From the NCBI GenBank assembly GCA_903953935.1, contig CAJBLF010000040.1:1-39983 (forward strand): 39,983 nt of DNA, written 5' to 3'. A program made the position numbers and the translations under genes. Shown in pieces: positions 1-25,974 of this stretch. The stretch is from an uncultured bacterium. Its GTDB lineage: Bacteria; Patescibacteriota; Gracilibacteria; Absconditabacterales; Absconditicoccaceae. Within the stretch, counting starts at the first letter, position 1; every line of letters starts with the position of its first letter. Under the pieces are notes generated by a model. That model had not been told where the DNA came from. It made no database searches and saw only the letters and a program-made list of their open reading frames with translations.

Positions 1-3000
1 TAACTTCTTTGGAATTCAACAAATCAGGTATGGTTTTGTTTTTGCCTGGTATCTGATATTTCAATATAGTAGCATTGAACTCATCCGTATAATCAAACTC
101 TGGTATTGCCACACTTGTTTGCATCGTTCATGCATCTGTTCTAAACTCTAATAAACTTCATCCAACAGATGAACTAATAGATAAATAATCGTCATACGTA
201 TCAACATCATTACTTGTACCAGATGACGCACAATGCAATATCATTATATAGGTATTTTCAAAAAACATTTGGAACTCATCATATTGTGGATCAAGCAATT
301 CCTTTGCTTTGTTTTGATCCATATGACTGAGCTGATTTTTTATATCTAATCGTTTCGCTCATTTTGCTGCAATCATTTTCTTAATATCTTCTTGAATATC
401 CAAATCCTCATCATCTAATACCATCATACTTGATAACTTTGCAACCAATCAATCTATGGTAGCCACCTTATCTTTTATCTCGCTAGAATATGCGACCTCT
501 TTCACAGCATACTGTTCTGTATTATTAGTCAATCCACATGTTTTGTTTGCTAAATATGCTGGTATTGCTCCGACTACTGCCTCCAGTGCAACTAATTTTG
601 TCCCGTCCCATTTGTAATAATAATATCCAGTATTCTCGATTCCTGCCCTAGTAAGATTGTTAATCATATCAGAAGTCAGTGGAATATATGTATCATTGCT
701 CTTTGCTTTGATATATTCTTCTGCAGCTTTTTTATACTTAGCAATATTTTCTGGTGTCCTATATGCCAATTCTTCTGTAATAATATTATTCATTAGCGTA
801 CCATATTCTTTGTTAATATTTTCTTGGTTGGTTCATGTTTCGACTTCTATCAAAGAATATCTGGCGTTATCCTTATTGGTGTTGGTAAAATAATTTCCTT
901 TATCAAATCATGTTGCCAACCTTATTTTTTCAAATAATAGTCCAACTTTTGTCACATCATTGAGTTCTTCGTCTTTACAAATACTTTGATCTGAACCAGC
1001 AAGGAAATTTCGATATCTGAATGTATTATTCACATACCATGTACCATCTTCATAATATATTCCATTTTTTGATTTTTCTGATGGCACGTAAAATGCTTTC
1101 AAATCATCCAATGTATTCTTTCAACGATATCATCAAAGCACTTCTTTTGCTACTCTATACAAAATATTTTGTCCCACCGATGAAGAGATAGATTCTTGCA
1201 TCTCAACTTCATCAGGAGTCATGATATCTATTTGATTGGCAGCAAATGCTGCTTCCATCTCCTCTTTGGTAAATCCCGTCGGATTTACGGTAAGATCTTT
1301 AAAGAACGCCTCCATCATAGAATAATCAACCTTATTGGCATCAACTGTTATGTCTGGAATATCTGAAGGCAACAATCAAAATGTTTTGCAATTATAAAAC
1401 TGCACCACATACTCCATATTGGTTTTTATCTGATCATACCCAACATACGTTTCTTTATTTAATTGTTGAAACATGAAATTATAATAAGGCAAAGACTTCA
1501 TAATCTTATGAAATTGCAATGGACTGGAAACATACAATGCTTCTAGTTTTGTAAATCATGCATTCTCTTTGAGTTTATTTAGTATCTCAGCTTGATATGT
1601 AGGGATATCTGTAGCTTTTGTCGTGGTATCTTTTGTCATCTTAAGATATTGTCTGGATTCTAGAAGTACACTATCTAGTGCTGTCTTGGCATTAGCACTT
1701 ATTATTTTATCTTTTGCTATAAATTTATCACCATATTTCTGCTTTATATAATTGAATCTGACTACACTATCAGCTTTCATAGCATCACTTTCTTTGTTTA
1801 CCTCTGTCTGTAATGCTGTATACCCTGTTCATTTAAATCATTCTAAATTTAATGTTGCATATGGATAATTTTCACATTCTTCCATCCAAATGAGCGCTCT
1901 GATTGCATCTTCTCTTGTCTTCAAAGAAAGCGTTTTCTTTCCCTCACCATGACATCGTGACCCAAAGACTGCAGATACTGATTCTTGAAAATTTTCTTGA
2001 AGAGAAATCTCTATACCGTCACCCCAAGCTTCTTTAGATATTATTTCCTGTTTAATCTGCGCCATACACATCCTCTTGAAATCTTCAAAATTTCTGTAGT
2101 ACGTTTCTACCACTTCATAATATTTATTCGCCCCATATTTGACCGCTTCTATACCTGCCGTAACAGCTAAAATAATTCGTCCAGCTGGATTCCAACTCAT
2201 AGCTACTCACACAGCAAACACCGTCAATTCTGCTCCTGCCAAAGTCAGCGTGAATGTTGCTTTTTCTTCTCTCACTGATGCTCTTTCCACATTTATTTTC
2301 TTAATCTCTGCGGCTTCTTTTATCAGACCTACACCATTAAAAATATTTATCACGCCATCTATCAACAGTGGACTCCATTTCAAAACCCTTGTCCATAGTC
2401 CTATTTTGCCTTGCATAGCATTAGCTACTGTCTTTGCTTCTTCTCCTGTTGGATTTTTTGTTGCTGCTTCAAACGTCTCTTCACTGATTTTTTCTGTTTG
2501 ATTGGTAGCGTTTGTTATTCACTCATTTAATCCTGACTCCTGGGCAGGAGATATAGTTTTATTCCCATTAAACAAACCTTTTATCTTATCCATTCATTCT
2601 TTGAACATGGTTTTTGCTCACTTCCATGCTTCTCCTATTTTTGTTGTTTCAACAGCTCATTCAGTTCATCCCCTCAATTCTATGACCTTTTCTGCATATG
2701 CTTTTGCCTTGCCTATCTGTGTAACATCAGTCAGATATTTTGCCGCATCACCATCAGCCGTTCACCACTGTTGTAATATCTTGTATGTCAGACTATTTAC
2801 ATCATCTGCTTTAGTCAACAAATTGGTATAATTGCCCGCAAGCGTCGTAATATCACCAAGGTTTTCTGTGGTTTTTGCTACTGTCACTATATTACTTATC
2901 GCTGATTGATATTCAGCACTAGCCCTAACGATGCCTTCATATTTGTTGAGTATATCAGGTAAAATATCACTTATTTGAATCGTTTTTTTTGCACTAAATA

Positions 3001-5731
3001 ATCATGGCTTGGTGATTGCTTCATTGAGAAATTTTTCTCAGACCTTCGTCACTTCACCATTACTAAATACGATTTTTTCCAATCTCGTGATAAACGCCTC
3101 ATCTCTTTGTATCTTCAACACTTCTGTAAAAAATCATCTCGTCACCTCTCATCAAGGACTAAGCGCATTATAAATTTTAAATGCTTTTCCGTAGGATAGA
3201 CCGCGACCTATTCATGCTGCTATTTCTGGTGCAGAATTATACCATAGTTGTGCAATAGGTGTCGGAATATAATCAGTTACTTTTGCTAACATAAGGGTTT
3301 TGGGCAGCGCTTTGCTTGCCAATTTAAATGGAGCTTTGGAAATCGTAGTCGCTAAACTAACTACTCAATTTTTTCAGAATCCCGTAATATTTCACAATAC
3401 AGACACTGAAGCACATCAGCCATATATCCATGTTGCCGACTTAAGATATTGCCCCTCATATGCAAGTTCTGCTCCATGAGAGAAACAATATGCTGTTCAT
3501 GTAAATACAGACGTAAAAGCAGTAATACCTCTAGTAACTATGTTACCATTTTTATCCGTCATATCTGCAATACTATTTTGCGTCGTATACAATTCTTTGA
3601 GCGTTGCATAATACTCATCTATTGATTTCTTTGCTTTGGTGGTGTCTGTTTCTTTTTTTAATTCCTCAAACTTTATGGTGAAGTCTTCAAGCATTTTTTT
3701 AAATCAAGCATCTTCTTTTATTTTCTTCTTGACAGCAGTTTTATCAAAAGATAATTCAGTCATATGAAGAAATGGAAATAATTTTTTGCTAGATTCCCAG
3801 AATCCATCAGCAATTTCATCTTCCGCACCATTTTTTATCTTATCCAATGTTCCATTGGGATCTTTATCAAAATCTTTGAGTGTGGTATCTCTTTTATCGT
3901 TAATAGATTTTATATCTTTTGCAATATCATAATTATACTTCAATATATCTTTGGTATCGATGTTATATTCAAACACCTCTGAAAGCTTTTTATTTCTAAA
4001 ATCATCTCTTATCTTGGATATTTCCTCTTCGCCTATTTTATATTCAGATGGATTATATTGCATATCATTTATCAATTCTTTTATTTTTTCAACATCAGTT
4101 GGCATAGCCTTAACTACATACTTATCATCTTCTTTTTTGTAAATTGTTTTTCATGCTTTTGCTTTTAACTCTACTTCTCTAGCTAAATATGCATTTTCTA
4201 AGTAATTTGTATATGACATTACCTTAAGTATTTTCCTAAACACCATATGAATTTCGTCGATAGAGTTTTTTCATCATACAAATTCATCGACTTTGGCTTC
4301 CATGGTAGCATCGTCTATAATTCATGCAATACCAAACATTCACAATACCCCGCTTACTAATTTTGTACATCATTTAGCTATCAAGCCTGAAAATGCTTTT
4401 TTTATCTCAGTTATAGTTCCATATGTACAGATAGTAAAGAGTCATCTTTGCCCTTCCATATCATCTATTTTTGCAAATTGATTTTCTAATATATGAGGAA
4501 TTGCTCCTTCATATTTTTCCTTTCATTTGCCAAGTTTTGCATCTTCCAATCATGTTGGCATAGTACCATCATTGAACTTGTATACTTCATCATAGACGTC
4601 ATTTACTTTATTTCCTAGAACATTTAATTTCTCAGCTTCTTTTGGCTTATCTTTCAGTAATTTTTCAAAACTTTCAGCTGCATTTTCTGTGGAAGTCATT
4701 GTATTACTTACATCAGCACCTGTCCCTTCTGTTTTAGATCGTGGCCGTTTACCTGTCAATAATCATTTTCACAAAAACCATATTCCTGTACCTACTGCTC
4801 ATCGTTTCAGTCCAGTTTTGATATAATCTCGAACACCTTTCTTTTCTTTTTTATCTTTTTTTTCATCATCTCCTGATGCTTCTTTTTTCTTTTTGCTAAA
4901 TAATTTACTGATTCCTCGTATAAGCAACCCAACACCTGCCGTAGCAGCAATTGCTGGAACTGGATTTTTCTTCCCCCATTCTCGCGCCTTATCTGCTGTT
5001 TCTTTTACCTTACCTCGTGTTTTTTCTACTCATGACTTTACTTTTTCTCGGGTTGTCGTAGCAGGTGTCTCCACCGTCTTGAGATCTATTTCATACGTTA
5101 CTAGCAAAGCCTCTTCTTTTGCTTTTTGTTCTATGATAATCTTTTTAATATCTGCATCGGTGATATCTTCTATTTTAACGTCCTTTCGTCATTTCCTTAT
5201 TTTATCTATAATATCCTGTACTTCTTTCCTTTTGGCTTCTATAGCTACTTTCTTTGCTTCTATCTCTTGCTCTTTTACTTTTTTCTCTGGTTCTCCCATA
5301 GTTGTTTTCTGTTTGAGATACTCATTGATGATTGTTTGGAGTTCTGTAACTAGCGTTTTTATTGTGGCAATACCCGTAGTAATGCTTCAGAAATCTAGGG
5401 TATTATCTATCTTTTCACTGCTTTTTTGTGTTTCTGCTGATTTTGCAATATCTGCCTTAAGTTCAGTAAGATCTGTACTTGAGGTTTCCATTGTTTCTAA
5501 TGTTGCAAACATCTTTTCAAGTTTAGTTTTGTTTGCTATAGATTCTTCATCCGTTTTTGATTTAAGCGCTTCCAATTCTTTCTTTATCGCTTCTTTGGCA
5601 GTAGTAACATCTGTTTCTATATTCCTTGCTTGGATTTTTTTCTGGTCTACAGAAGTTTCTGTCTTGAGTTTCTCAAGATCTATTTTAATATCATCTATTT
5701 GTTTCTGAAGTATTTCCACACTACTTACCAT
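1..5731 (-). CDS. Giant hypothetical protein, C-terminus beyond the left edge
   Basis: One open frame runs from ATG at 5731 to the left edge: at least 1,910 codons with no in-frame TAA or TAG and many in-frame UGA codons read as Gly. I do not recognise a family. The first ~230 residues are Lys/Glu/Asp-rich with long heptad-like stretches, probably coiled coil. Around residues 255-325 come Ala/Gly-rich hydrophobic segments separated by a very basic Lys-rich stretch, so a membrane-associated section is possible. The rest mixes helical charged segments with short hydrophobic patches. No N-terminal signal peptide is visible. The next gene upstream on the same strand is a DUF4112-like membrane protein, separated by a terminator-like hairpin, so the giant gene probably has its own promoter in 5732-5800. 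The open frame is certain; the function is unknown. Confidence 0.88.
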
Positions 5732-5803: not shown

Positions 5804-5837
5804 AAAAAAATACCCATCTCACGATGAGTATTTGTTG
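5804..5837 (-). terminator. Rho-independent terminator after the DUF4112-like gene
   Basis: Read on the minus strand, ATACTCATC pairs with GATGGGTAT (one G-U pair) around a GTGA loop, followed at once by a run of seven T. It lies about 30 bases beyond the TAA of the upstream gene and before the giant gene. Confidence 0.75.
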
Positions 5838-5867: not shown

Positions 5868-6629
5868 TTAATACTTTTTTTTACCATTTTCTGCTGATTT
5901 TTTGTTTTCTTTAGTTTTGAGTGAAATATCAATCTTTCTCATATTATCTTGCATTTCCATTTTGAGGGAAACAACATCTATCTGTTCTTTGTCTGGATTA
6001 TCTTTGTTCCACTGCTCTGCATCATCAAGCATTTTTTTGAAACTATCAGTAAAAAGTTTCGCTGTCCATTTATTTGCCTTGAATACACTATCAGCAAACC
6101 ATCAGATAGTCGCCTTGATAGGTTGTGTAATAGGCCACGTTAACCACCCAATAAATGGTATAGACTGAATAACTTCAACAGGTGCCTTCAAAAGTGTTTC
6201 AAACGTCCAATCACCCACTTGTAAGAGAAGTGCCTTGATTTTGTCACTCAATGGTAATCTATATTTTGCAGATAATTTTTGATTTTGAATGATAAAAAAC
6301 AACAAACCAGCGCTTGATGTAACAGTATCTCCTATAAATGGCAAAATCGTCAACCAAGAATCCATAGTATCCAAACGTGTCGATCGTTTGCCTATGGCCT
6401 CAGATACCTTCATACCGCTTGCTAAATCCTTCTCCAACTCTTCTTTTGTCTTTTCTTGTTCTTCAGTAAGGAGTGTTTCACGAACATCGTTTTCCAATTT
6501 TTTGGTGTCTATCTCAGCATCTACCTTTGTTTTTTGTGTACCAAGTCACTTATCTACTTCAAGCTTTGTCTCTGGAGTTTGTTTGACTTCATTATGCCGC
6601 TGTTCTTCTTTTTTTTCTGGTGTTGTCAT
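5868..6629 (-). CDS. DUF4112-like membrane protein
   Basis: This 253-residue protein starts at ATG 6629 and ends with TAA at 5868. The first ~85 residues are highly charged (Lys/Glu), probably a cytoplasmic helical region. Residues ~95-215 resemble DUF4112: a hydrophobic segment with LPFIGD, a second with IPFIGW, then FADSVFKANKW, matching the family's paired P-x-x-GD elements and its conserved K-A-N region. The tail is Lys-rich. DUF4112 proteins are small membrane proteins of unknown function. At least two UGA codons are read as Gly. The downstream neighbour is the giant gene, and the two may act together (inference only). Confidence 0.72.
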
Positions 6630-6822
6630 GGGAACATATGTATTTAAAAATATAAAAAATCGTTTTTACTGGTGTATTTATTTTTGCATCAATTTTATTT
6701 TTTTATGACATTTTTTACTATTTCTCTGCTAGCCACAAAGACTCATGAGACATATAAAATACCATATATTCATTATACCCAGAAAAAGAATCCTGTCAAA
6801 TATTTTATGTATAACACTATTA

Positions 6823-6874: not shown

Positions 6875-8071
6875 TTATGCGGCAATTAGTCAGTCTAGAA
6901 CATCAAAAAAAGCAGCAATATCTTTTTCATCATTATATACATAGGCACTCATCCTACAGGTGCCAGCTTTTTTGAAGTGTTTATGTAGCGGATATGCGCA
7001 GTGTCCACCACAACGAATCGCAATATTAGCATCTGAAAATGTTTCGCCGATATTGTTGAAATTTGCGTTGTTGGCAAGTATGAAAGAAAATACCGCTATC
7101 CTATCAGAATTTACGGGTCAGAGAATTTCTATTTTTTCTTGATGTTTTTTAAATCCCTCCAAACATTCTTTCACTAATTTTTGTTCGTGTTCTCGTATTT
7201 TTTGCATACCACCATTTTTTTTGATATATTCTAGTGCTTTCAACAATGAAACAGCTCAGATAATATTTGGTGTCCCCGCCTCGAATTTGTCGGAATTGCC
7301 TGCTAAAGTATGTCACTCGATACTCACGTCTTCAATAGTTCATCATCAACGAATGATAGGTACCAATTTTTTAATCCATTCTTTTTTTACATAAACAACT
7401 CCGATTCCCGTATAGGCCATCATTTTATGTCCCGTAAATACCAAACAGTCACAGCCAATATCTTGCACATCGACGGGAAAATTTGGCACAGATTGTGAAC
7501 CATCCACGAGAAAAAACGTATCCTCACGAAGTTTGGATTGTATCTTTTTGACATCATAAATTTTTCCTGTAACATTGGATACCTGCGCAACAGCAACTAC
7601 CTTTACCTTATCAGTATATTTCTGATCAAAATCATTTCGATCGATCTCGTATTCATCGTTGATTGTTAGAAATTCTATACTAAATCACTTTCTCTGCGCT
7701 AAAATCTGTCGTGGAAGTATATTAGCATGATGCTCCCAAATTCAGAGAAGAACCACATCTCACTTCTTCAATACATCACTAACAACTAATGATTGAGCAA
7801 TTAAATTAATTCAATACGTAGAATTGTAACTGTATATTATTTCGCTCGCTTTGCAGTTGAGTAACTCACCTACCAGTTCTTTTGAATGATGATATGCTGT
7901 TTCGGATTTTTCGGAAAGCGAATATAATCATCTGTGAATATTTGCATATGATGAAGCTACAAATTCAGAAACCCCATCAATCACATATTGTGGCTTTTGT
8001 GTCGATGCTGCATTATCCAAAAAAACTAATCATGGATTGTTTGCAAAGATGGGAAAGTCAGATTTTAGCAT
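6875..8071 (-). CDS. sufS: Cysteine desulfurase, SufS type
   Basis: This 398-residue class-V aminotransferase (SufS is usually ~405) removes sulfur from L-cysteine for Fe-S cluster assembly. Visible marks are the N-terminal FLDNAAST, the DGSQSVPN cofactor region, the PLP lysine in TGHKMMA (K216), and the group II active-site cysteine in CGGHCAYP (C358). The start is ATG 8071, giving MLKSDFPIFANNPG in line with SufS N-termini. Several UGA codons are read as Gly, two of them adjacent in the RGGT element before TIED. No sufU or iscU scaffold lies beside it; the upstream neighbour is a purine deaminase gene. A DUF59 (SufT-like) gene sits far away at 35051. An isc-type or kynureninase-like role is less likely given the C358 context. 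Confidence 0.93.
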
Positions 8072-17380: not shown

Positions 17381-19807
17381 ATGAAGCTATTTACCTCACG
17401 CCTCGTCAAAAGAATTCTCTGAGTACTCGTCATCATATGATGTTCAGGAATTTTTCTTAATGGACATGTGGGAGTAAGTGAACCTGTACATGCACAATGA
17501 ACAATAAACACTTGAGCAAGTGGTAGTGTTACTCAACCAACAGATTCTATGAGTATATGGCAAATCCTCAATATCTTCCTCAAGGTTATCTATCTCCTGC
17601 TCCGACCACTTTTGGTAATCGCGGGGCTTGCGTTAGATAATACCCTAGTGTATGCTTCTGTATTTCACCTTGATGCGCCACTTCGACAATTTCGAAATAT
17701 GATGAAAAATTTTGCTAATTTTGCTCTGTGATTTATGGTGCTCTATGCTATCATAAAAAGCATATTTTCTAACAGCTGAGAATGATCCTTCAAAGATGAA
17801 AAATCTCCCTTGGGAATCATTAAAGTCACCTTAATCGCAGGTATTCTAGTCCAAGCAAGCTGGTTTTTGCTTGCTGCACTCGTAGATATCTCTACGATAG
17901 CGACCTACGCAATAGGAGGACTTCCCCTCAATGTCATCAAAGGAAGTGACATAGACAAAACAAGAATTCTTTCTGTAAATAGCTCTATAGATCTCAATAA
18001 ATTCAACCTCAGTTTTGCATGAGGTGAAGATTTTAAAGTATGGTATTCTGTCTCGCATACCTGAATAAAACTACCTGATAATGTTGTAAAAATATCTCCT
18101 TGTAGGATAGCAAACTCTTATGTCATCGGAAGAGAATTCTGAGATCCGGAATTTAATAATGAAAAAAAACTCAATGCTATGGATGAGCAGCAATTCAAGA
18201 ATATGGAGCTCTGTGTTCTTTATGGCAATCAATTAGTAGTGTGGCCAGAACAATCATTTTTTGATGATGTTGTAAAACATCGATCATGATGTGAAACAAC
18301 ATGATGCTTAAGAGATACTAAACGATGATACGATAATGCAATGAGCAAACTACTATCAATGACATGACGAATAACTTCTGGTGCCATAACAGGAAAACTA
18401 GTAAATCTCGACGCAGGAACATGAGTACTAAAAGCATGAATTGCTTTTTTCTCTGGAAGTAATGCTCCATCATTGTCTAGTATCATCCAACAATCGAAAT
18501 GATTCGTATGACCATTAGTGACGATGTATTCCTCATTACTCAATTTCACTCAACTTACTACAGTTTCTGTAACTTCAGTCTCCTGAGCATCAGGTATGTT
18601 TATCATCAAAGCTCTGGTCGCTATAGCACTCTTTTTTCCGCTTATAGCTCTAGCCCTAGTACTTATTCTTAGAATAGGTGTCCTTTGGCTCTATATTGTT
18701 GCATCACCTTTCATTATTCTCAAAGAAAGCTTTAAACTCAAGCTATGAGGTTTAGATACGTATCTCAGCGTCAAGAGTGTCATCGGAATCATTTTTGCGC
18801 CAGTAGTTACCGTAGCTGCACTCAGCCTCTCATTGATTTTTATGACTGCCCTCGTCAATGGCTTTTCCTCCAATAATAGTAAAGAATCTATCCATGAAGC
18901 TTTTGATATTCAAACTATCACAGGTGATGTTGGTAATGATGCCGTAAGCTTTGGATGAATTACTCAATTGGAATTTACTAGACTTCCCTGGTGAGAAGGT
19001 ATGGATTGGTTTTCTCGGCTTATGGTAAACTGCTTTGCGATAGGACTTATGTGGATGATTTTTTTTGCGGCACTCAAATCCAATGAGCTCTGAAAAGCTG
19101 TCTGAGGCAAAGTGGAAGATATCGGAACCAATGTGTTTAAGACACTCCCTATCTTACCTATCGGTCCCGAAGGCAGATGAGTCGGTATCGGTAGCGCTGC
19201 TAACGTAATCAAATCGGTACCAGATACCTATATAAGCAATCTCAGCGACAAGCAAGAAAGATGGTTGACCAATCGTCTTAATAGCTGAGACAATACATGA
19301 TGAAATGAAAATAAGTGAGCGGCAACAACTTTTAGCGCAGCACCGATTGTAGCATGACTTTGATGATTATCTACTCCTACAAATAAACAAGAAGCAGAGA
19401 AAATATTTACCGATAATGGAGTTACCACGCCTCCTATACAAAATATAACGGATAATTCTCAAGCGTACTTTGCTGCTATAAAAGCACTGCCAGATGGTCA
19501 ACAAAAATCGTGAGCAATATCTGCTATTGAAACTGTTACATGAAATTCAAATTGGTATGAAGATATGGTTAAGACTGAGGCAAAAACCAATTTAGAAACT
19601 GTAACTAAATTGGCTGCAGACGGACCAGCACTAGAGACCATATTTACTAATCCATCTTCCGAAAACAGAACAAAAATAGAAGCATATTTTACTGCAACAG
19701 GATGAGCACCATATGAAGTACCATATAAAGATGGAAAAATATATACCGTCACCAAAATAACTACCACTACCCCACCTACCTATACAGTTGTGCTAAAAAC
19801 CCCATAA
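17381..19807 (+). CDS. VirB6/TrbL-like polytopic membrane protein (paralog 1)
   Basis: This 808-residue protein starts with a hydrophobic signal segment (residues ~10-30, ending near VHAQ). It then has several membrane helices: about 58-85, 112-130, 144-175, and a strongly hydrophobic block in the second half (GMFIIKALVAIALFFPLIALALV, in two overlapping helices) followed by others. The C-terminal ~230 residues are polar, Thr/Asn/Gly-rich and probably soluble. The pattern (signal, central helix cluster with LLRPLLVIAG, NFANFALGF and AGILVQASWFLLAALVDIST) fits the VirB6/TrbL class, the inner-membrane channel of type IV secretion systems, but no diagnostic residue is known. The next gene is a clear paralog. 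UGA glycines are abundant. Assignment by architecture and context. Confidence 0.62.
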
Positions 19808-19850: not shown

Positions 19851-21818
19851 ATGCATATAAAGAAAATTATCAGAATACTATTTTGTCCAGCTACGATAAA
19901 AATCGTTGCACTCATTGGTATTGTCTGATTTTTCTTTATCCTGCCTACATACGCTCAAAGCGCGTCTTCAGTCGATCCAGTTTTAAGCAGAATCAAAGAA
20001 GCCTTGCATATTTTACTTTCACTGTTTTCTCGATTATGGATTATCCTCGCTATACTAGCGGGTAAGCTCATGACCAATGATTTTGTCTATGGCTCATTTA
20101 TTCATATGGACGTCTATCTGCGAAAAATACGAAATATTATGAAAAATTTTGCCAATTTTGCTTTAGCCTGACTCGTCTTAGTCTCCATCATTCAGGGTAT
20201 CGTGGGAAAAGAAACATTGGATGTCAAAAAAATCATTACCAATACTTTGTTGGCTGGGATACTTATCCAATCAAGTTGGTTTCTGATGGGAGCACTGATA
20301 GATATCTCTACAGTAGCTACTGCTTCTATCAGCGCCTTTCCTATGACGTTTCTCAAAAATGATATCAAGTTACAAAACAAGATAACCAGTGGCATGAGCT
20401 GATTTTCCTCCCAAAGAATAATCATCAATCCTGATGCTACTGGATGGAACAATTCTCTCTTCACCAAATCAGAGGTATCCCCTGTAACTGACGCTACCCG
20501 AGAAAAAATATTACCCAATCAAAATTCTGTCAGTTGACCATTTATCTATCTCGGTATGTCGGTATTTAGTTTTCAAAAATATCTCACTCCAGACATTACA
20601 ACCAATGCAGAAAATATCACTTTGGGTTTTGCTCTACAATTTTTTCTCCTATTCTTTTTTACGGTAGGACTCCTACTCCTCCTGGTAGCTAATATCCTGA
20701 GAGTAGGACTGTTGTGGATATTTATCGTATGAGGACCTTTCCTTATCTTATTTCAAGTTTTTAATAAAAAAATATCGGCGGGAGAATGATGAATAGGTAA
20801 GCTATTCACGATAAGCAACCTTATGGCTATAGTATTCAAACCGCTTATTTTCGTTGCTGGAATATCATTGATGCTCATAGTAATTGTCAGTATGCAGAAT
20901 AGTATATCCTGATCATGAGCCAGCTGGGAAAACGACCTCAATGGAGTTTCACTTTCCGTCACGTGAGATACCTCTACGCTCAGTATACCATGAATCAGCA
21001 ATGTTTCTATTAATCAAAAAGATATCCTAGGAAAAGATGTCATCGGAAGCGTTTGATGAAAAGCGCAGAATTTTTTTAGCACTATGATTATGTACTTGTT
21101 TACTATTTTTCTTATACGATTTTTTATCAAACTCTCTCTCACTACAGGATGATGACCTATCGAAAAGATTATGGAGGGATTAGTCAAACAAGCTGAAAAT
21201 TTTGCAAAATCTGCCCCTGTACTTCCTTTCCAATGAACAGGAGTCTCATATAAAGGACTGAAATCGTTTAGCCAACAATCAAGAGATAAAACACTCAAAT
21301 GATTTGGATTAAATAGAGAATGAAAATTCACTAAAGCAGAAGATGCGTTCCAACAAAAAATGAATTCATGGATAGGATTACCATCATCATGGTCTAATGA
21401 TGATTATGATACACTAGACCAGATGGCTAGATGAGGAAACTCAAGCTTTATGAGCAAGTCTATAGAAGTATGACAAAAAAATAGTGAATGATTGAGCTTA
21501 AGTGATTCAAAGTGGAAAACATCATTAGAAAAACGATTAGCTAGTGAGGTTGGAAAGAAAGCACTAAAAAATGCTATTCCAAGTCTTAAAGACAATGTTA
21601 CACGAAATAGTTCATTTAAAGATACCTTTGAAGATGACACTAAAGCAAATGTTGCAAACAATCGTAAGGCACTTCATATGCTTATGTGATGAGATGATGC
21701 TATACAATACGTTGGTTGAAAGAAACTAGGCAGTAAAGATGGTTTAAATTGAGCTATTTCCTATTCTGACCTAACCAACAATGTCTATCGAAAACAAACA
21801 GAGACCCCAACAGAATAA
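19851..21818 (+). CDS. VirB6/TrbL-like polytopic membrane protein (paralog 2)
   Basis: This 655-residue protein is a paralog of the preceding gene. Both share the sequence from the NFANFAL helix through AGILIQSSWFLMGALIDIST (versus AGILVQASWFLLAALVDIST), and both have a late hydrophobic block (FFLLFFFTVGLLLLLVANILRVGLLWIFIVGGPFLI versus a similar stretch with RIGVLWLYIVASPFIIL), each broken by short charged turns. An N-terminal signal segment ends near PTYAQS. The last ~190 residues are polar and charged. It is 43 bases downstream of paralog 1, so the two are probably co-transcribed. Role inferred as part of a type IV secretion-like channel. The start is ATG 19851. Confidence 0.62.
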
Positions 21819-22869: not shown

Positions 22870-25800
22870 ATGGCAAAAAAATCTGTAGAAAAACATATGA
22901 TAGCAAACTTAGGAACCTTGGAAAATAAAATTACCTTCCAGGGAATTAAAACCCATAATCTCAGAAATATTGATATCGAACTTCCCAAAAACAAACTGAT
23001 TACAATCACATGAGTTTCTGGTTCTGGTAAGTCTTCCCTGGCATTCGATACTATTTACAAGGAAGGACAATATAGATATATAGAATCTCTTTCGAGTTAT
23101 CTCAGACAGTTTTTTAATTTGGGAGAAAGACCAGAAATTGATCATTGTAGTGGTCTCTCACCTGCGATAGCTATTGAACAAAACAAGAAAGCAGGTAACT
23201 CAAGAAGCTCGGTCTGAACATTAACAGAAATCGATGATTACTTGAGATTGCTCTATGCAAAGCTCGGTGATAGCTATTGTTATAGTTGTGGAAAAGAAAT
23301 CAAACCACAAACAATCGAGCAGGTCATGAGCCAAATCCAAACCAATCATATGGGTCAGAAAATATATCTTTTACAAGAATCTGGACGCTTTGAAAAAAAA
23401 GAAGACCTGATGGAATTTGTTAAAAAGAATAGAAATAAAGTAGAAAAGGGGAAATGATTTACTCGCTATTTACTGGTGGCAGACACCACAAAGAACAAGG
23501 ATCAAGGCACAAGTACTGAGGGGAAAACAAAAAAACAAAACCTTGTTTCTGGTTCCAATTCCCTTGAACCTATTGAATATTTCTATCTTGAAACACCAAA
23601 TGTGCCAGCCGAATATTTTCCTCTCAATACCTATGGAATCTATGATCGTGTCACGGTTGAATCAGAAAAATTATGAAGACTAAAAGAAGATATCATCAAA
23701 ATACTCGCTGAGTTTAAAAAGTTTGGAATCTATACTACAGAGTCTGTTAAGCCCATAAAATCAAAAGTCAAAAAATCAGAAACTAAAGATGTTTGAGCTC
23801 ATGTTCCTTCGGCTATTGAATGGTTTACGGATAAAATGTATTGTCCTGATTGTAATATCACGTATCCTGAATTCACTCCACAACACTTCTCTCCCAACAG
23901 ACAGGAATGAGCTTGTGCCACTTGTCATGGTATAGGAGAAATATTACAGATAGATTTTGATAAGATGTTGGATCCTATTAGCCCGTATATGAAGGCAATT
24001 TTACCACGGAGAGACTCAAACCTAGGACAATCATTACTTTTGAAATTAGCGCAGAAATATAGTATTGATCCTGATAAGCTTTGGAAAGATTTACCAGAAT
24101 GGTTTCAACATGTCGTACTCTTTGGAGATGAAGAATTACTCAGAGTAAGTTATGGTGGAAAATACATCAGCATGTACTATAAGGGAATCGAAGAAATCAT
24201 CAAGGACCAGTATGCAAAAGGTCTTTTGACGGTAGATTTTCAAGCTATGCTTGATATGAAGACCTGTAATGAATGTAATGGAACGAAACTAAAAAAAGAA
24301 AGTCTCAATGTTTTTTTGACCGTCCATAAAATAGAAAGTCAAAAATCTGTAAAATCAAAACAGGCTGACCTTATTGATCTTTGAGTTGGTATACCTTTGA
24401 CCAAATTTAATATAGCTGATTTACAAAGAATGCCACTCAATGACTTGATTGCTTTCGTTGATTTGTATAAAGAACATGCAAACAAAGATCAGACACTTAT
24501 CCAAAGAATCATCAATCCACTCAATGATAGAGCAAAAACCATCCAAGATTTGTGACTTGGCTATCTAAGTCTTCATAGATGAATAGACACCCTTTCTGGA
24601 TGAGAAATCCAAAGACTAAGACTGGCTAAACAACTCGGAAATAAACTAACAGGAATCGTCTACGTACTCGATGAACCAACGATCGGACTCGATGATAAAG
24701 AAATTCATAGAGCTATAAAAGCTATAAAAAATCTTAGAGAAATGGGAAATACGATCATTGTCGTAGAACATAATGAAGAATTTATTAAGGCATCTGACCG
24801 AGTGGTTGAAATAGGTCCCGGCGCTGGAGACTTTGGTGGTAACCTGATGTTTAATGGTACGTATGATGATTTTTTACAATCTAATACACTTACTGCCCAA
24901 TACATTCTCGGCAAGAAAAAAGTATCTATCGATTTCGAACATACACCAAGCAATACCACTATAAAAATAAAAAAAGCATCAAAATTTAATCTTCAAAATG
25001 TCGATGTAAATATCAGACTCTGAACATTTACTATCATTACTGGCCCTTCTGGTGCTGGAAAAACCACACTTATGTATACTACCCTCTTCAAATTTTTGAA
25101 CGAAAAACAAAAATTTATCCAAAGTTTCATTAGGTTAACCCTTTTGAAACAGTGATGGAACTGGCAAGATATTCTCGCTGCACCCGTCATGAATAAAGAG
25201 AAATATGAACATTATGAAAACTTAGCGATGCAAGAATTTCACAAAGACTTGGCTGTGGAAACTATCATCGGCCATGAAGAAATCAAGAATACTATCTATG
25301 TAGACCAAACAAGTATCGGAAAAACTCCTAGATCATGTCCTGCAACATTTATAGGTACCTTCGATCATATCAGACAACTCTATGCATGAACGACCGATAG
25401 TAAATATCTCTGATTCAATGCCAGCTATTTCAGCTTCAATTCAAATAAATGAGCCTGTCCTGCTTGTGACGGCTATGGATACAAAAAAGTAGAATTACAA
25501 TTTCTTCCCGATACCTATATTCCGTGCGAACTCTGTCAGGGGAAAAGATATAAAACAGAAATCTTATGAATAAAACGAAGAGGAAAAACTATTTCTGAAG
25601 TGTTATGAATGTATATCAGTGACGCTTTGGATTTCTTTTCTGAAATCGATCATGTCCGTGAAGATTTACAACTTATGGTCGATATCGGGCTCGGCTACCT
25701 AAGAATGGGACAGCCTGCACATATGCTTTCTGGTGGAGAAAGTCAAAGACTAAAATTAGTAAAACACTTATTGAAATCATATAAGGGGCATACCATGTAC

Positions 25801-25974
25801 TTTCTCGATGAGCCAACCGTTGGGCTTCATTCAGAAGATATTGTAAAATTACTGAAAGTTATCAAAGAGTTTTTGAATAAAGGCGATACTATCCTTATGA
25901 TCGAACATGATAAAAATATTCTGAAATTTGCCGATGATGTCATTAGATTGGACAATGGTAAATTGGTAAAATAA
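22870..25974 (+). CDS. uvrA: Excinuclease ABC subunit A
   Basis: This 1,034-residue UvrA (usual ~940) is the damage-sensing ATPase of nucleotide excision repair. Walker A1 is GVSGSGKS (48-55). A first zinc finger lies in CPDC-x(n)-CATC, the first ABC signature is LSGGEIQR with UGA for the second Gly (residue 578), and a Walker [12 protein letters not shown] follows. Walker A2 is GPSGAGKT (from residue 725), the second zinc finger CPAC-x(n)-CELC, the second signature LSGGESQR (953-957) and Walker [12 protein letters not shown]. The first Gly of Walker A1 is UGA as well. A Lys-rich insertion at about residues 190-235 and a basic stretch near 300 account for the extra length. No uvrB or uvrC lies in the window. 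Confidence 0.97.

Follow-up and report, generated by a model that had tools for sequence, protein, structure and literature searches.

A giant protein paired with exchangeable peptidoglycan hydrolases suggests an undescribed, fast-changing cell-wall breaching device in Absconditabacteria

A contig of 39,983 nucleotides from an uncultured absconditabacterium (CAJBLF010000040.1, assembly GCA_903953935.1; here contig C40 of genome G000, which is 1.3 Mb and 96% complete), referred to below as the window, encodes a giant protein, P0001, whose gene forms an operon-like pair with that of a peptidoglycan hydrolase, and this locus suggests an undescribed, fast-changing cell-wall breaching device. The giant belongs to an undescribed family confined to its class within the sample searched, and the cutting domain of the paired enzyme has been exchanged between sister species. 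In one lineage, an SLT domain is fused to the giant itself, and allele classes of the giant cross genus boundaries. A class-restricted, signal-less and membrane-prone giant that is accompanied by interchangeable wall-cutters and exchanged across genera is best read as an attack device. Vampirococcus, an absconditabacterium, is a predator that kills the bacteria to which it attaches (PMC8080830). For the breaching and consumption of other bacteria by Absconditabacteria and Gracilibacteria, the locus offers specific candidate genes.

The giant protein gene occupies positions 2..5731 and lies on the minus strand, a correction to the sequence-only reading; the single frame of 1,910 codons that this reading had described is confirmed, starting with an ATG at 5731 and running uninterrupted until it leaves the window at position 2. 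No open stretch above 212 codons arose when the bases of the window were shuffled 200 times. The frame contains 47 TGA codons, decoded as glycine under genetic code 25, and both this code and the assignment to Absconditabacteria (SR1) are supported; named relatives are labelled "candidate division SR1" and "Ca. Absconditabacteria" (the Peribacteria label of one relative is probably a misnaming). The concern that the gene might be a truncated fragment does not apply. Positions 1..141 are copied exactly at the start of another contig, C39:1-141, on which the frame gains 60 residues and reaches a stop at C39:323, so that the window part and its continuation (C39:142-323) give a complete gene of 1,970 amino acids. 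The join has two independent supports: the added tail, which shares 65% identity over 106 amino acids with the C-terminal end of the giant in genome G007, and the hydrolase and lexA genes that lie beyond the giant's end on C39 in the same order as in relatives; most of the giant's length is homologous to the G007 protein. That the assembler left a 141-bp overlap unmerged suggests a branch at the join, such as a strain variant.

The hydrolase of G000 lies at C39:359-1396 (plus strand), with a likely ATG 35 bases past the giant's stop, and carries an M23 domain (E 5e-24) with intact HxxxD and HxH motifs. Among the genomes compared, which are mostly metagenome-assembled (G and L numbers denote genomes and loci; f1 and g1 are the family and genus of G000), the enzyme in this position is of several unlike classes: M23 in G000, G010, G003 and G045; NlpC/P60 in G007, G004, G006, G043, G042 and G025, and twice in G015; VanY in G044, G046 and G005, the last with an additional M23 gene; and YkuD_2 in G036. 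The proteins of G037, G029 and G023 have Cys/His motifs and no Pfam assignment, and by eye resemble papain-type amidases. Within g1, the first ~150 residues of the partner are kept, and this N-terminal domain is 42–66% identical across swaps of the catalytic domain. A conserved N-terminal domain, interchangeable catalytic C-termini and fast turnover are also hallmarks of polymorphic toxins; here, however, neither a trafficking domain nor an immunity gene was recognised, and what is conserved as the partner is a giant protein that diversifies in its own right. No small partner gene recurs with every hydrolase; accessory genes, DUF4112 among them, appear in no regular pattern. At their N-termini, the hydrolases all lack a hydrophobic stretch resembling a signal peptide. 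Their C-termini are distinctive in that 15 of the 21 end in Ala, against 7% of the proteins encoded in the loci; the tmRNA of the genome (L109:1501-1862) encodes the tag peptide AKTLNRAFALVPSYSLAA, ending in SLAA, and the terminal Ala of the hydrolases is possibly a degradation signal of the same kind. In G071, a member of family f15, the giant itself includes an SLT lytic-transglycosylase domain close to its C-terminus. That a wall-cutting domain is fused to the giant in one lineage and encoded in its operon in another is good evidence that giant and hydrolase act in one process.

The two proteins may also have a module in common. A profile built on the N-terminal ~105 residues of the B proteins, the second halves of giants that are split in many relatives (see below), matches the N-terminal domains of four hydrolases (E 4e-6 to 2e-4), which score 7–12 bits above the best of 4,200 shuffled sequences, and in the reverse direction a hydrolase profile matches B proteins with E-values down to 4e-8. 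The remaining hydrolases do not individually exceed the 4,200 shuffles, and that of G000 reaches 3.0 bits with the B profile, so the shared domain rests on the four relatives and the alignment of the hydrolase family. The shared N-terminal domain and the membrane segments are supported, but more weakly than the gene structure, the pairing, the catalytic-domain swaps, the SLT fusion and the allele classes that cross genera, all of which are shown.

The giant and its flanks have evolved at very different rates. The gene occupies a recurrent slot, found in many genomes of f1 and in most of g1, that runs from a DUF212 (PAP2-like) gene through one of unknown family and, in most cases, a deaminase gene to the class-V aminotransferase, the giant or its two halves, the hydrolase and lexA. 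The B region was compared with the syntenic aminotransferase flank in eleven genomes. Seven g1 species fall into five giant classes (G000 with G007; G010; G004 with G006; G003; G009), between which the giants are 20–33% identical, whereas the aminotransferases are 79–86% identical (64–67% for G009) and most flanking genes are ~80–90% identical within the genus. The B region of G003 is 64% identical to that of G046, from another genus (g21). In the approximately unbiased (AU) test, the giant rejects a monophyletic genus (delta lnL 549, p 7e-5), whereas the flank does not (p 0.39), and the tree, built from wider B regions, gave the same result when repeated with the best domain only. At such high divergence, alignment could affect the exact values, but the grouping of G003 with G046 is fully supported. 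The enzymes follow a different course again: the G000 and G007 giants are 67% identical in the B region, yet their partners are M23 and NlpC/P60, respectively, and the G007 hydrolase most resembles the G004 enzyme, although the G004 giant belongs to another class. Such turnover, with hydrolase type uncoupled from giant class, is the pattern expected under diversifying selection with exchange, and the locus could serve as a marker for host-driven diversification.

The sequence-only reading had called the protein a giant of unknown family, and it has kept that status. It had no match above the cut-off in Pfam, NCBIfam, PHROGs or the PDB, P0001 was unmatched in 50,697 phage records and its profile was unmatched in IMG/VR; no housekeeping family was matched. 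Conservation across Absconditabacteria and Gracilibacteria, in turn, could be documented. Members were found in 16 of the 49 f1 genomes with the protein as query and in 24 with a profile of the conserved C-terminal part, and 17 standard-code genomes from seven further families of the class gave matches, mostly within frames of 1,360–2,200 amino acids. In a sample of 380 genomes of the phylum, the family core was matched in same-class genomes only. About half of the f1 genomes, single-contig ones included, have no detectable member, which may reflect true absence or divergence. Divergence is a real possibility, since the slots of G042 and G005 hold shorter, more divergent proteins together with a hydrolase. 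In G005, a member of g1, this slot (L098, 3334-7811) encodes an 899-amino-acid protein that matches DUF4073 (E 5.5e-9); VanY and M23 hydrolases come next, and no B protein was recognisable in the slot. One apparent relative, L046 (G048:C6:2-5830), was dropped from the alignment, as it has only a ~70-residue module in common with the family; it is a different giant of 1,942 amino acids with apparent FHA and 2H-phosphoesterase domains, and the matches to these two domains in the first alignment are attributed to the sequence of L046 itself.

The giant is built from modules whose conservation varies along its length (all on the minus strand). The coiled-coil start and the basic and hydrophobic sections noted earlier were recovered: a charged, helical or coiled-coil N-terminus by composition (~residues 1-245, 4997..5731) precedes two moderately hydrophobic segments that flank a lysine-rich stretch (~residues 245-330, 4742..4999). 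The latter module, identified by hydropathy and conserved across the class, matches the standard-code giants in profile–profile comparison (E 1.1e-5, probability 82%). The A region (residues 300-860, 3152..4834) was defined by matches of profile A3 in separate genes of 1,025-1,170 amino acids in many relatives. It is followed by a mobile module of ~70 residues (residues 947-1018, 2678..2893; match to G048:C6, E 3.8e-6, and alignment), which L035 and the unrelated giant L046 also contain. The B region, or conserved C-terminal part (residues 1095-1735, 527..2449; alignments A2 and A10), is helical in a model of medium confidence and opens with a hydrophobic hairpin (residues 1119-1182, 2186..2377; hydropathy 1.35-1.7) that has counterparts in nearly all B or fused relatives. 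Within it lies the class-wide core (residues 1370-1616, 884..1624), which contains the motif GQNILYR...GIYY and matches the standard-code giants with a profile–profile E-value of 4e-18. The giant thus carries both features that characterise class members, the C-terminal core and the N-terminal hydrophobic module. In many relatives, the protein is encoded by two adjacent genes, A (~1,030-1,170 amino acids) and B (~1,070-1,480 amino acids), which in G000 and others are fused. The N-terminus recurs elsewhere as well: residues 3-103 of the giant are 50% identical by BLAST to a paralogous 558-residue protein in the same locus of G007 (L031:7027-8703), and paralogues upstream of the giant in G007 (by BLAST) and G036 (by eye) have the same type of coiled-coil and hydrophobic N-terminus with different C-termini.

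The absence of a signal peptide, also noted earlier, was borne out by a hydropathy scan, which was used here instead of a trained predictor. Among the giants and the A and B proteins, a signal-like N-terminal stretch was seen in L036 (3.3), where it exists only if translation begins at a TTG ahead of an internal Met, and L037 was borderline (1.9). An AlphaFold model of the C-terminal region from seven sequences is mostly helical, with a mean predicted local distance difference test score (pLDDT) of 63 and its best parts at ~1273-1550 and 1640-1715; the model of the A region has a pLDDT of 49.

These features can be assembled into a tentative mechanism. The giant (A plus B) would be a long helical scaffold, exported independently of Sec, whose marginally hydrophobic helices could enter a membrane; the peptidoglycan-cleaving enzyme of the operon would be recruited to it through the shared N-terminal domain, and the pair would open the wall of another bacterium during attachment or consumption. 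Catalytic domain and giant sequence may have been exchanged and diversified in an arms race with different hosts. That giant and hydrolase constitute a wall-breaching device used on other cells is a reading with a little under even probability. If true, it would explain how the episymbiotic or predatory bacteria of the candidate phyla radiation (CPR) breach walls, and the loci would provide a set of natural wall-cutters that share one docking domain. The link to a host-dependent lifestyle, first put forward on account of the gene's size, has become more plausible through the swapped partner, the SLT fusion and the allele turnover. A bolder version, in which a class-specific, Sec-independent delivery device uses a membrane-active scaffold to carry exchangeable wall-cutters into host or prey envelopes and cross-genus allele swapping tunes host range, is correspondingly speculative and, as it stands, unlikely.

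Several observations weigh against an attack role. Peptidoglycan hydrolases also remodel a bacterium's own wall. Several near-complete f1 genomes, such as G001 and G002, have no detectable member, the giants of L036, L041, L092 and L096 have no hydrolase directly downstream, and no hydrolase was recognised next to the standard-code giants, G071 excepted. No secretion genes lie beside the locus, the predicted membrane helices are weak, and the model of the C-terminal region found nothing at E < 0.1 in searches of PDB and viral structures.

The main rival places the same pair at the cell's own wall, where giant and hydrolase would open peptidoglycan for the assembly of type IV secretion systems (T4SS) or pili in the manner of VirB1, likewise a dedicated wall-opening enzyme beside a large partner. 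Patescibacteria often have a T4SS without a linked VirB1, and other hydrolases are suspected in that role (PMC12102498). The genome encodes a TraG/VirB4-like ATPase, and the window itself encodes the peptidoglycan synthesis enzymes D-Ala ligase and Mur ligase. However, the ATPase lies on another contig, so the locus is unlinked to VirB4 or VirD4, no secretion gene adjoins it and the giant matches no T4SS part by Pfam. Species of one genus should, moreover, keep much the same wall chemistry of their own, yet the enzyme switches class between M23, NlpC/P60 and VanY, and turnover of the giant far outpaces that of its flanks. An own-wall role is considered unlikely, if worth keeping in view.

A domesticated injection protein, related by descent or function to phage tape-measure or ejection proteins and working with a wall lysin, is improbable. 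The general architecture is alike: such proteins are likewise long, helical and signal-less, with a coiled coil, a few weak membrane helices and SLT, M23 or NlpC/P60 domains fused or adjacent. The best PDB relative of the G000 partner's M23 domain is named Gp16, and one member of the giant alignment has a weak PHROG tape-measure match (E 5e-4). Against this stand the stable chromosomal slot, the lack of phage structural genes in the loci and of a contractile-sheath gene in the genome, the empty searches of phage records and IMG/VR, and the absence of any detected sequence or structural homology. A prophage origin was rejected, as there are no phage homologues, no sheath gene and no virion neighbours.

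More doubtful again is the idea that the giant has a structural role at the surface or in the cytoskeleton and that the hydrolase next to it is there by chance. Vampirococcus lugosii and other Absconditicoccaceae, from the same bacterial group and with a similar host-interaction lifestyle, encode many large, supposedly surface proteins of similar size, described with WD40, PKD and fibronectin domains and a predicted membrane or surface location (PMC8080830, PMC13059738). By those descriptions, the present giant would be set apart, since it has none of these domains or other adhesion domains, lacks a signal peptide and is linked to a wall-cutter, in a pairing that is conserved over many genera and reinforced by the shared N-terminal domain and the SLT fusion. 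Least probable of all is an intracellular lysis or defence module, in which the signal-less hydrolase would be an altruistic or lysis toxin under the giant's control: the missing signal peptide, the possible degradation signal and the allele turnover would also fit such a locus, but no nucleotide-sensing or effector family was recognised, no search aimed at defence systems (PADLOC) having been made, and a fixed chromosomal slot beside housekeeping genes is unusual for defence genes.

The giant's neighbours with recognised families are indeed housekeeping genes. Upstream, the class-V aminotransferase of SufS/NifS type (6875..8071, minus strand; Pfam E 2e-104) is the conserved slot marker, and on C39 the hydrolase is followed by lexA (C39:1403-2020, minus strand) and, in G000, by recA. 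The giant was earlier said to follow a DUF4112-like membrane protein; the gene at 5868..6629 (minus strand) has only a weak Pfam match of its own (E 0.12), but a clear DUF4112 gene is present in the same locus of a relative, L043 (E 2e-17). A perfect 12/12 match to a sigma-70-type promoter lies upstream of the DUF4112-like gene of the window at 6772-6799, and a hairpin resembling an intrinsic terminator, by consensus match, marks the boundary of this gene with the giant (5808..5833, minus strand).

Elsewhere in the window, 22870-25974 encodes UvrA, an ordinary housekeeping protein, and 17381-19807 and 19851-21818 encode adjoining proteins of 808 and 655 amino acids that are rich in TGA-encoded glycine and have no PDB relative. 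At the right end of C39, a frame of at least 1,238 residues (L003:7426-11142) with 52 TGA-encoded glycines matches right-handed beta-helices and probably encodes a surface protein, truncated where the contig stops. A second hydrolase family, with a conserved C-terminal part of ~105 residues, is found near recA (L003:4111-5472 on C39, and L037:15973-17214); its G000 member has a CHAP domain and a G012 protein with the same tail matches the M23 enzyme, which is possibly a second case of catalytic-domain swapping.

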